Source: Bolinopsis microptera
Lineage: Eukaryota > Ctenophora > Tentaculata > Lobata > Bolinopsidae
Length of the DNA stretch: 64,000 nt
Direction: 5' to 3'
NCBI RefSeq assembly: GCF_026151205.1
Contig: NC_087078.1
Coordinates: 434,001 to 498,000, forward strand
The number at the start of each line of letters is the position of its first letter. Positions within the stretch are counted from its first letter, which is position 1. A program made the position numbers and the translations under genes. This document shows positions 9,101-58,400 of the stretch, one piece after another. Under the pieces are notes generated by a model. It ran no database searches. It was given only the letters and a program-made list of their open reading frames with translations, and was not told the DNA's origin.

Positions 9101-12100
9101 CAGAACTTTACGATTCTGATAAAGAAGTTTAAGAAGACGAACGAGGAATTGCTAAGTATTGTAATGAACTGTGATAAAGGAGACGAGATCTCTCTTGACA
9201 TGTGGGAGCAGGTAATAATAACAAGTTTATTTACTGAGAAAGTTGAAACAAGGATACAGTTTTACCCACCTGATATAAAGATGTAACGATTGTATTTATT
9301 GTTGCACGTATTAACTGTAACATGTAACTTGTTGTAAATACTGTTTCATTAACTAAGGTTCTACTCGCAGTTGTTACGGTATGTCCCTACTAAAGAAGAA
9401 ATACAGTTGCTGACTGATTTAGAAACAGATGAACAAACCCTATCCTCCCTAAGCAGAGCGGACCGGTACTTCCATGGTGCAGCCAGGTAACTGTCACCAT
9501 GGTTACACGTTGCCATTGTTACATGGCACACCTTACCACGGTTACATGGCGCAACTATATCTTTCAATTTGTCGTGGTCAGCAGTAACTTATAAGAATTA
9601 CATTTGCATAACTGCAACTGGCAGGGCCAAGCGAAATGTATTTCATGGATCTCAAAATAGTGGCACTGTAATTAAAGTGCTTCTTCATGGAAACTAAATA
9701 TTGTATCTTCAATATTCATGTTCTTACAAAAGCTTCCACTTCAGTATTTATCACTACGAAGAACGAATCAAAGCTGTAAATTTCAAGAAGAAATTTGATG
9801 AGCGGATAAAGAACATATCTCCCAAAATCAGGTGAGATTGGAGTTACCATGGTAACCATTGGCGAGCTATAAAATGTATCCTTGTGTTTGACAAATAGTG
9901 TACTATCTGCGTCATTTGTAGGTGACATTTCACAGTCACACTGTTGTCCAGTTATCCTCTGTTGTAGTAACATCTTGACCTATATTGTGGCCCTTAAAGC
10001 TATCTTTTTCTTATTTATTATTCTTATTATTTATAAGTTAAACTTAAGTAAAAAGTAAAAAGTATGTAGTAATAATAGCTCTTTGATTTCAACAGCTCAA
10101 GTTTTGACATTTCAAAGGCTTATAATATCTACAAGTATTTATATAACAAAGTTAGTGTAACCATGGAAACGTGTTGACACAACATATTATGAAGCTTAAC
10201 AAGCACATTCCAACTGCTTACTCCTTACTAAATACTTTAGTTTACTAATACGATTCTAGCAACTATTCTGATGAACTGAGACAGAGCTATTTGTCTATTT
10301 TATTGAATCAAGTTGGGACAAACTCTAAAGCGAGGGGGTTATCTGAATAGTAGTAGTATTATTGCGATTAAACTACATATTGATTATTAAAACTGCTCAA
10401 TTTCAGAGCACTAATAAAGGCTTCCACTGAAGTAACATGTAACCATATTAACATATTGTAACCATGGTAACATGTAACCATAGTAACATATTGATTATTA
10501 AAACCGCTCAATTTCAGAGCACTGATAAATGCTTCCACTGAAGTAACATGTAACCATGGTAACATGTTACCATAGTAACATATTGATTATTAAAACTGCT
10601 CAATTTCAGAGCACTGATAAAGGCTTCCACTGAAGTAACATGTAACCATGGTAACATGTAACCATGGTAACATGTAACCATAGTAACATATTAATTATTA
10701 AAACCGCTCAATTTCAGAGCACTGATAAAGGCTTCCACTGAAGTTGTTAAAAGTGAGAAGCTGAAAGAAATGTTAACTTTGATTCTAGGATTCGGCAACT
10801 ACTTTAACTTCGGAAAACGTGGTAAGCTCTAATTGAAATATTTGAAAAGTTTGACTTGCTCTTTGTAGGAACATATGGTCGTACCTGTAAATTGAAATGC
10901 AACGAGTTTAAAGTATTATATTTAGTATCTTACTGCATAAAGCGAGACGATATTATGTACATAATATATAATTTTAACAATACATTCCGCGAAAGCCGTG
11001 CGAGATATATTGCAACCTTTTTGGCTGGGTCGAATACTTTTATGGCCATTCGACCAGTATAAAGAAATAAGAAATTGGCCCGAGGAATAAATAATACAGG
11101 TGTTATCAACAACGCAAAATAAGTAAATATCGTTGTCTCTTGTAAGTTGTAACCACGGTAACATGTCTCTTGACATAATACATAAGTATTAAAAGTATTG
11201 TTAGGAACTGATAAAATAGCCAATATTCTAGGTTTTCTTCACTTCATTGTTACAATTTCAGCTACAATAACCTCCTTCTTTCAGGAAATGCCGTGGGATT
11301 CAAACTGGAGACCTTAACTAAAATATGCGATACAAAATCAGCTGATAATCAACTCACATTGCTAGTTTACATTGTGGAGACTGTGGAAATGATTGTGAGT
11401 ATATAATTATTGAATCTTTAACGTGTAACCATGGTAACATGTGGCCATGGTAACATGTAACCATAGTAACATGTAACCATGGTAACATGTAACCATAGTA
11501 ACATGTAACCATGGTAACGTTTAACCACAGGAGTTTGTAACCATGCTAACGTGTAACCATGGTAACATGAAACATTGGCAACATGAAGCCTTGGTAATTT
11601 GTTACCATGGTAACGGTTAACCACAGTAGCTTGTGACGTCATGGCAACATTTTCAGTTCCCAGATTTGGACACGTTTATGGATGAAATAGCGCATGTTCC
11701 TGTAGCAGCTAAAGTAGCCTTGGCGGAACTAAAAGCAGATGTTAATGATCTGCAAGGTGGTAACAGACTTCTGATCAAAGAAGTGGATCACATGCAGAAG
11801 AACCCGTCTCTTAAAGGTTACTTTAACCTTTGTAACCATAGTAACATGTAACCATGGTAACATGAACTTTAACCTTTGCTGTAACTAACACTACTCTTAA
11901 TATTTATTAGATTGCTTATCTTGCATCTTCTGATTTTCTTAAATTGTGGCCTGGAATCGTGAATTAATCCATTTATTCTTAATGCAAATTTTCCAAATTA
12001 TTTCTCCAAACCCCTAGTTTCCTAGTTAAGATATAGTGCGATACCTTAAAAGCTAAAATCTATTCCGCGTCACAGTAAATTATTTCTCGCCTATCCAGTA

Positions 12101-55400: not shown

Positions 55401-58400
55401 CTGATAACCTACAGAACTTATTCTGTTTTTAAAACAAATAATACTTATTTAGATTCTAGGAAGTGCGGTGAAAGTCAATCTGGTTTCAGATTTGTAGTGT
55501 TTTATTTATTAAACAACTATATGATCTGAGAGACCTTAATTGGTAATTCAGTAGTTTAGAAGTACTGCACGTCTTTACTTAGAAGAGATCTATCAACATC
55601 AATTATAGCTGAATCCCGGCAACTAATAAATATTATAAAGGAGTTGTCAGCACGTGCTAGGAGCTGGTTGTCGCTGATCCTAGCGTTAAATCCACCCTTC
55701 CTAAAAACCTGGTCAGTCCAGGATAAAGCTGTGGCGTTTGGGCGCCAAAGTAAAAAGTCGGGTAGTTCGGCACGTGCACCAAGTGTTACGATTACTCTGT
55801 AGAGATATCCGCACGTGCACCAACTGTTACGATTACTCAGTAAAGATATCTGCACGTGCAACATTAGTATCCTAGGTCACGTTACAAAGGTAGGATCAGA
55901 GCAAACTATTATTTTCCTAAATCAGCTTAACCATGATCACATAATCACGTCACAGAATTGCAGTTTAAGGCCTGACAGTGACTGGTAAATGCTATGATTT
56001 AAGAAGGCGAGGACTGAGGACTTTCAACGCTTCTTCTGTATAATGGTAACCATGGTCACGACGTCTGATGTCCCCGACGTTGCATTAACCTCAAGACTTC
56101 CAGTTAAACCTATTACCTAACCCCAACTAGAAGTACTAGAATACTAGATAGCAGTTTACCACAGACCGTTACCATGGTTACCACAGACCGTTATCATGGT
56201 TACCACAGGGTACAGACCACCTCGACTATCGACCAAATGTCAATCAATGTTTACATAACAGGGGCTACTAGCTAGACAAAGAAACGTTATATTTAGGCGG
56301 ATAAGTTGTGACTAGATTACCATTTATGGTATTGTTACCATGGGCACGTTATAACCTTATGTGGTAGTGACATGAAACATGGAAGAATAAAATGTCCGTT
56401 CCACAAGAGGAGGGAGCAGTCTTTTCGCATTGACTATAAAACGTAATTCTAACAGTTACCATGGTTACTTAGGGTATTGCAGTAATTCTAACAGTTACCA
56501 TGGTTACTTAGGGTATTGCAGTAATTCTAACAGTTACCATGGTTACTTATGGTATTGCAGTAATTCTAACAGTTACCATGGTTACTTAGGGTATTGCAGT
56601 AATTCTAACAGTTACCATGGTTACTTAGGGTATTGCAGTAATTCTAACAGTTACCATGATTACTTAGGGTATTGCAGTAATTCTAACAGTTACCATGTTT
56701 ACTTAGGGTATTGCAGTAATTCTAACAGTTACCATGGTTACTTAGGGTATTGCAGTAATTCTAACAGTTACCATGTTTACTTAGGGTATTGCAGTAATTA
56801 TAACAGTTACCATGGTTACTTAAGGTATTGTAGTAACTCTAACAGTTACCATGGTTACTTAGGGTATTGCAGTAATTCTAACAGTTATCATGGTTGCTTA
56901 GGGTATTGCAGTGATCCTAACAGTTACCATGGTTACTTAGGGTATTGCAGTAATCCTAACAGTTACCATGGTTACTCAGGGTATTGTAGTAATTCTGTCA
57001 GTTACCATGGTTACTCAGGGTATTGTAGTAATTCTAACGGTTACCATGGTAACTCAGGATATTGTAGTAATTCTAACAGTTACCATGGTGGCATGGTTAC
57101 TTGGGGGTATTGCAGTAATTCTAACAGTTAGCATGGTTACTTGGGGGTATTGCAGTAATTCTAACAGTTAGCATGGTTACTTAGGGTATTGCAGTAATTC
57201 TAACAGTTACCATGGTTACTCAGGGTATTGTAGTAATTCTAACAGTTACCATGGTTACTTAGGGTATTGCAGTAATTCTAACAGTTACCATGGTTACTTA
57301 TGGTATTGCAGTAATTCTAACAGTTACCATGGTTACTTAGGGTATTGCAGTAATTCTAACAGTTACCATGGTTACTTAGGGTATTGCAGTAATTCTAACA
57401 GTTACCATGATTACTTAGGGTATTGCAGTAATTCTAACAGTTACCATGTTTACTTAGGGTATTGCAGTAATTCTAACAGTTACCATGGTTACTTAGGGTA
57501 TTGCAGTAATTCTAACAGTTACCATGTTTACTTAGGGTATTGCAGTAATTATAACAGTTACCATGGTTACTTAAGGTATTGTAGTAACTCTAACAGTTAC
57601 CATGGTTACTTAGGGTATTGCAGTAATTCTAACAGTTATCATGGTTGCTTAGGGTATTGCAGTGATCCTAACAGTTACCATGGTTACTTAGGGTATTGCA
57701 GTAATCCTAACAGTTACCATGGTTACTCAGGGTATTGTAGTAATTCTGTCAGTTACCATGGTTACTCAGGGTATTGTAGTAATTCTAACGGTTACCATGG
57801 TAACTCAGGATATTGTAGTAATTCTAACAGTTACCATGGTGGCATGGTTACTTGGGGTATTGCAGTAATTCTAACAGTTAGCATGGTTACTTGGGGGTAT
57901 TGCAGTAATTCTAACAGTTAGCATGGTTACTTAGGGTATTGCAGTAATTCTAACAGTTACCATGGTTACTCAGGGTATTGTAGTAATTCTAACAGTTACC
58001 ATGGTTACTCAGGGTATTGTAGCAGTAACGCGTATCAATGTGACAATGGAAAGTGTGTTAATCACCTGCAGACTTGTGATGGGTACGACAACTGTGGGGA
58101 CGGTAGTGATGAGCGCGAGTGTGGTGAGTTGTTGCTATGGTTACTATGGTTACCTTAAAACTTAAGTTAATATCTTTGTTCCATACAAAAAAACTACTTT
58201 TGATAAACACAAGAAGCCACGTTTTCATCTGCAGTACAATTTAAATAGTTTGATCCCGATTGGTGGCTGTTAACAGACTGCTTTTTGATTGTTGCTATGG
58301 TAACTACTTGTTATACCCTGTATTATTATTCTCCGCAGGAAGACCCAACTTGATACACTCTTTAATAGAAGATATGCTATCTTGTGACTGCAGTGACAAC

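Follow-up and report, generated by a model that had tools for sequence, protein, structure and literature searches.

Why should the tandem repeats that flank exons be built so often from the splice junction itself? The question is raised by a window of the ctenophore Bolinopsis microptera genome (contig NC_087078.1, positions 434,001 to 498,000), the whole stretch of 64,000 nucleotides analyzed here, which contains three genes with 42 introns and as many donors, encoding a formin, an integrin and a frizzled-related protein (Fz/LDLa). An original prediction, made from the letters of this DNA, listed repeats at exon–intron junctions in all three genes, held that ordinary minisatellites should not favor junctions this consistently, and treated the phenomenon as one without a name. 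The arrays are best classed as mirages, the border-spanning duplications described in amphioxus, with the phylum, the high density and an X-box-like filler as the new elements. The window was selected for its conspicuous pattern, and all P values given below are therefore conditional on that selection.

Repeats across splice junctions

All 16 junctions listed in the original prediction proved to carry tandem or two-copy repeats that cross the junction. At 12 of these an array called by Tandem Repeats Finder (TRF) spans the junction directly, while at the other 4 nearby copies were recovered with the Basic Local Alignment Search Tool (BLAST); the 12 arrays and the 4 BLAST cases thus show the feature that defines a mirage, a tandem unit containing the exon–intron junction. 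Both 5′ and 3′ borders are affected (12 acceptors and 4 donors, P = 0.08), and the tandem copies sit on the intron side. Merged TRF arrays total 23,408 of the 64,000 bases, with copy numbers at junctions reaching about 80. When exon pieces were compared to the window by BLAST, the pieces copied in tandem were located at splice junctions with their copies lying intronward. The remaining matches were a stop-codon repeat of the alternative exon E22a, a 20-base piece of E16 located within intron 10, and a weak match of 27 bases to E18 in inverted orientation. In 12 of the 14 loci compared, the repeat has a J-F-J anatomy, in which two J segments, each about 20-66 base pairs (bp) long and crossing or adjoining the junction, flank a filler F that is often an X-box-like palindrome.

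The preference for junctions was assessed against a tolerance null, in which every array was collapsed to one unit and placed at random within its gene, wholly exonic and multi-junction placements being forbidden (5000 draws). Among arrays with a period of at least 20, 12 of 28 span a junction compared to 3.01 expected, a number reached in 0 of 5000 draws (maximum 10). The excess is also seen for all 60 arrays (12 junction-spanning, 3.73 expected, maximum draw 11), for arrays of at least three copies (10 of 14, 1.66 expected) and for long-period arrays lacking a full X-box in the unit (6 of 18, 1.94 expected, P = 0.009); none of the 32 shorter-period arrays spans a junction (0.76 expected). 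Split by gene, the counts for periods of at least 20 are 8 of 13 in the integrin (1.87 expected), 2 of 7 in the formin (0.70) and 2 of 8 in the frizzled-related gene (0.46), so that with 8 of the 12 junction-spanning arrays the signal comes mostly from one gene. Junction arrays are larger as well: with E5 counted among them (13 junction arrays, 15 others), their median copy number is 8.3 compared to 2.5 elsewhere (P = 0.002), and they make up 13,605 of the 20,187 array bases within gene spans. Guanine–cytosine (GC) content was considered as a driver of the excess and rejected, unit GC being 0.404 at junctions and 0.401 elsewhere. The claim that the arrays favor junctions is thus borne out, even under a null that already permits junction-straddling duplications. 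Ordinary tolerance accounts for part of the pattern, as copies of exon pieces can persist intronward of the junction with the protein unchanged. The excess itself is incompletely explained, and is based on one window and mainly one gene.

The gene models underlying these counts were built by hand. The spliced Fz/LDLa model, which uses the exon-attached copies, is 100% identical over its full length to the NCBI B. microptera protein P0049, and this annotated protein, consulted as a protein record, carries no repeat insert. Integrin exons E3-E11 splice into a single open frame through the arrays at the E5 acceptor, the E7 donor, the E8 acceptor and donor and the E11 acceptor, exons E14-E23 do so through four further array junctions, and formin exons F3-F14 form a single open frame up to the stop. 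Protein searches with the formin returned only two distant matches, none of them from a ctenophore, and for the integrin no Bolinopsis protein was among the matches listed, so that the match of the window to the species comes from the Fz/LDLa protein. Integrin exon numbers from 12 on are those of the original prediction plus one, and its 21b corresponds to E22b, a mapping that is assumed. An exon call for E12 (32574-32621) was discarded after comparison with a Mnemiopsis protein, and the start of E13 was reset to 32738. Single-base frame slips in E2 (17650-17757, seen by eye) and E13 (32738-32806, seen by comparison with the Mnemiopsis protein P0001) are probably homopolymer assembly errors.

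The X-box-like spacer and the individual arrays

The original description of the junction arrays holds for the arrays themselves, but leaves unmentioned the X-box-like spacer that many of them contain. This palindrome was searched as the inverted half-sites GTNRCY and RGYNAC separated by 0-3 bases, a pattern taken from the X-box consensus of RFX transcription factors. It has 314 matches in the window, whereas 10 shuffles average 3.7. Of the 314, only 20 have the stricter GTTRCC-GGYAAC form; GTTGCCATGGTAAC occurs twice, and most copies read GTAACC...GGTAAC or are other variants. In roughly half of the junction repeats, it is the palindrome that separates the copies. At 18 of the 42 donors, compared to 4.9 expected, a palindrome also starts no more than 30 bases away, in six of them at exactly +5 (17406-59200), for example at the integrin E1 donor on the plus strand, where GTCA is followed by GTTACCTAGCAAC (17406-17438). 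This crowding at donors is apparently new and may be a more widespread feature than the junction arrays; no report of an X-box-like motif at donors was found in the literature searched (openly licensed PMC papers). The ctenophore loop motif CTEP1/CTEP2 was rejected as the identity of the palindrome, since it is GC-rich with two CpG in the available part of its description (PMC12221973), whereas in its common forms the palindrome lacks CpG. An exact 30-base pattern of the motif was matched by no viral and no prokaryote contig, as expected of an animal repeat.

All junction repeats lie on the plus strand. In the formin, the F7 acceptor (exon start 10718) has four copies of the intron end, AG and 27 exon bases, with X-box stretches between them (10375-10744). 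At the F10 acceptor (exon start 12443), two copies of the acceptor plus about 50 exon bases (70 bp, 94%) enclose an X-box array (12308-12492), and at the F14 acceptor (exon start 14317) the unit consists of a branch-like CTAACTAAC, TTAG, 5 exon bases and an X-box stretch (14052-14321). The F12 acceptor was read by eye as an additional case, with the intron end through AG present twice around an X-box and no exon base in the copies (13136-13194); a computed comparison was out of register, with 6 of 18 matches, and did not confirm this reading.

In the integrin, the E2 donor (exon end 17757) carries 81.8 copies of 30 bp that are open in frame throughout (17733-20186). The E3 acceptor array (exon start 20565; 20318-20587) has a 48-bp unit of the acceptor, about 22 exon bases and an X-box, and the E5 acceptor (exon start 22553; 22346-22589) has two additional junction copies with an inserted X-box array. 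At the E7 acceptor, a case beyond those listed, a 21-bp segment of the intron end is duplicated around two X-boxes and stops 2 bases before the exon (23032-23111), and the E7 donor (exon end 23208) carries 7.6 copies of units of 58-66 bp (23174-23656). Both sides of E8 are affected, with 39 copies of 48 bp at the acceptor (exon start 25575; 23736-25606) and 6.6 copies of 48 bp at the donor (exon end 25753; 25730-26044), and the E11 acceptor (exon start 32398) has 75.9 copies of 65 bp (27509-32449). The E15 acceptor, exon 14 of the original prediction (exon start 33319), has 4.7 copies of an X-box-like 23-bp unit (33219-33326). In E16, its exon 15, the acceptor (exon start 33697) is present in two copies with an X-box between them (33585-33727), and the donor array (exon end 33843; 33836-33932) contains 36-bp stretches identical to the E15 acceptor junction. 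The E22b acceptor (exon start 41367) has two diverged copies (84%) around an X-box (41240-41420). The alternative transmembrane exon E22a (36370-36603) has its own stop, around which the sequence is repeated 2.8 times; here part of an exon has been duplicated with no splice site involved. In the frizzled-related gene, the part with an exon start agreeing with P0049 lies at 56443-58019, and further listed parts lie at 54087-54796 and 58668-58711.

Other features of the window include genes nested in formin intron 2 (448-8875): a minus-strand tubulin (about 3170-5413), presumably alpha; also on the minus strand, a precursor whose FFFKP-type peptides precede KR sites (about 1052-1778); and, on the plus strand, an FFFKPP protein (about 6366-6872), where translation of X-box sequence yields repeated residues resembling SNQLPS. 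An intergenic array (43743-44364) holds 14 copies of 44 bp, the unit of which, TTTCACAG and GTAAAT separated by 17 bases, corresponds to a 17-base mini-exon flanked by an acceptor and a donor; it might be an exon of a 5′ untranslated region amplified whole. Downstream of the frizzled-related gene (61246-63530) lie four arrays of the 11-bp unit GGCCTCTATAC with unique DNA between them, three of which have GGCGATTAGGTTTGG or a near-identical sequence ahead.

Origin of the junction arrays

The arrays are probably, and with moderate confidence, boundary-spanning minisatellites of the mirage type in a ctenophore, formed by DNA-level duplications with filler, tolerated through splicing and grown by unequal exchange. 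A DNA break or template switch near the intron end would duplicate the target and join the copies with filler, in some cases perhaps copied from other X-box sites, after which unequal exchange would multiply the combined J and F unit. The copy attached to the exon would be the one spliced, with further copies becoming intron; this use of the exon-attached copy agrees with the NCBI annotation for Fz/LDLa, and the open frames in the other genes are consistent with it. Wholly exonic duplications change the protein and are lost, so that exon pieces survive in tandem only across junctions. The original prediction had also allowed for an RNA step, but at none of the 42 junctions was a copy found that joins two exons (at most 2 mismatches), which points to duplications of DNA, or of unspliced RNA, and not of messenger RNA. 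Distinct copies number 27 of 39 at the E8 acceptor, 15 of 76 at the E11 acceptor and 8 of 81 at the E2 donor, and in most of the eight arrays compared, exon-derived positions show no clear excess of conservation over intron-derived ones. Some of the junction excess may be due to the clustering of X-box palindromes near intron ends.

Several observations weigh against this account. With tolerance as the only factor, 3.0 junction arrays would be expected where 12 are observed, and array sizes should be equal. In the E8 acceptor array (23736-25606) the exon part has changed by about 2% and the intron part several times more, which a neutral account does not predict; its exon differences, classed by eye, are mostly amino-acid-changing. 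As to the filler, three of the four highest-copy junction arrays (E2 donor, E8 acceptor and E11 acceptor) have no full X-box, and the motif can therefore not be a general driver. Junction arrays free of the X-box are also common and large, and just one of the four array-bearing donors (E16) is an X-box donor. Direct-repeat flanks were found at 40 of 117 X-box loci compared to 1.2% of controls chosen outside arrays, but 111 of 400 positions taken anywhere score alike, and X-box loci outside arrays do not differ (2 of 43 compared to 8 of 400, P = 0.25). As the earlier controls avoided arrays, the apparent contrast vanishes once arrays are allowed for, and X-box loci were rejected as special carriers of direct repeats.

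A larger role for the palindrome is conceivable, if doubtful: in ctenophores the motif could template repair or spread by itself as a filler, with a preference for intron ends, above all donor position +5, and could promote target-duplicating insertions there. Junctions across the whole genome would then be open to tandem amplification and to the copying of modules between exons. It is unlikely that a process coupled to splicing or transcription, such as R-loops, U1 or exon-definition complexes or breaks at junctions, directs the duplications to exon–intron borders. Such targeting would fit two findings, namely that junction arrays are four times as many as the tolerance null predicts and that they are larger, neither of which tracks unit GC, but both ends of introns are affected and one similar duplication is located at a stop codon. 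R-loops, suggested in the original prediction, are further disfavored by the coding-strand GC skew of the 16 units, which has no consistent sign, being positive in 9, negative in 6 and zero in 1.

Quite improbable is the view that the arrays are traces of intron birth, in which tandem duplication or an introner-like X-box element made introns from AG/GT-bearing exon sequence. Mirages have already been proposed as a route to intron gain (PMC3087553, available part), and the E2/E3 and E14/E15 borders are alike at 11 of 20 bases, but when the 42 introns are taken together, the sequence around a donor resembles that around its own acceptor no better than in shuffled pairs (6.24 compared to 6.36 of 20 matches, P = 0.71), and birth by duplication was rejected on this ground. 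There is very little to commend an assembly artefact, in which a long-read assembler multiplied the copies. The B. microptera assembly was built with wtdbg v2.4 and Illumina polishing, and Iso-Seq reads went into its published annotation, according to the available part of its description, and the frame slips in E2 and E13 would be in line with such errors, but the copies differ from one another at the E8 acceptor, E11 acceptor and E2 donor, fillers and insertions vary by locus, and the two-copy cases have diverged; the copy numbers of the arrays may be inexact. Selection that retains the arrays as spare splice sites, named as a possibility in the original prediction, or as in-frame protein length variants is the least credible explanation, because splice dinucleotides in non-functional copies vary about as often as other positions (12 of 528 changed compared to 343 of 11599 in eight arrays pooled, P = 0.43), the E8 acceptor differences noted above mostly alter amino acids, unit lengths of 65, 23, 71, 92 and others shift the frame, and the NCBI Fz protein is free of a repeat insert.

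Mirages and other known systems

The phenomenon does have a name, as the arrays match the published mirages of amphioxus, which are known here from the available parts of two papers. These minisatellite-like duplications of exon–intron borders occur in Adh3, the globins BflGb6 and BflGb9 (PMC3087553), TnC and PGBD5 (PMC3087553; PMC3902484). They affect both borders, reportedly leave regular splicing undisturbed, vary in length and have been proposed as a source of new introns (PMC3087553; PMC3902484). Common to both systems are tandem units (10-160 bp in the cited cases) that hold the splice junction, at 5′ or 3′ borders. The present case differs in its ctenophore host, in the 16 junctions within 64 kilobases, in arrays of up to about 80 copies, in the X-box-like fillers and in unit copies found at other junctions.

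No report of junction arrays in ctenophores was found in the openly licensed PMC papers searched, and ctenophore genome papers, in their available parts, mention tandem repeats only generally, for example as 13% of the Hormiphora genome. Within that literature, and as far as its available text goes, mirages are described only in lancelets, and the dense ctenophore case suggests that they are no lancelet oddity; ctenophores are the sister group to other animals in one recent analysis (PMC10232365, by its title). The B. microptera genome offers a countable setting for the origin of mirages, and the J-F-J anatomy, the size difference of junction arrays and the proximity of an X-box to 18 of the 42 donors lead to testable predictions on the duplication of exon borders. 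If the link to the motif were genome-wide, a short non-coding sequence would shape introns and supply spare junctions for new introns and exons. Annotation and short-read mapping near such exons may be unreliable, which calls for caution.

The palindrome shares with the X-box, the RFX site, its two half-sites with a spacer of 0-3 bases, but here it occurs in tandem arrays and at intron starts, and its likeness to the RFX site is one of sequence. Intron creation via tandem duplication of AG/GT-containing exon segments has reportedly been described by Rogers in 1989, Zhuo in 2007 and Gao and Lynch in 2009. That process and the present arrays both involve a junction-like duplicate tolerated through splicing, but here the duplicates lie inside existing introns, with no likeness between donor and acceptor of the same intron. 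Introner elements insert with target duplication near splice sites, a feature that the present arrays would share. In the Bolinopsis arrays, by contrast, no new intron is seen, and the filler is an array of a short motif and not a defined element.
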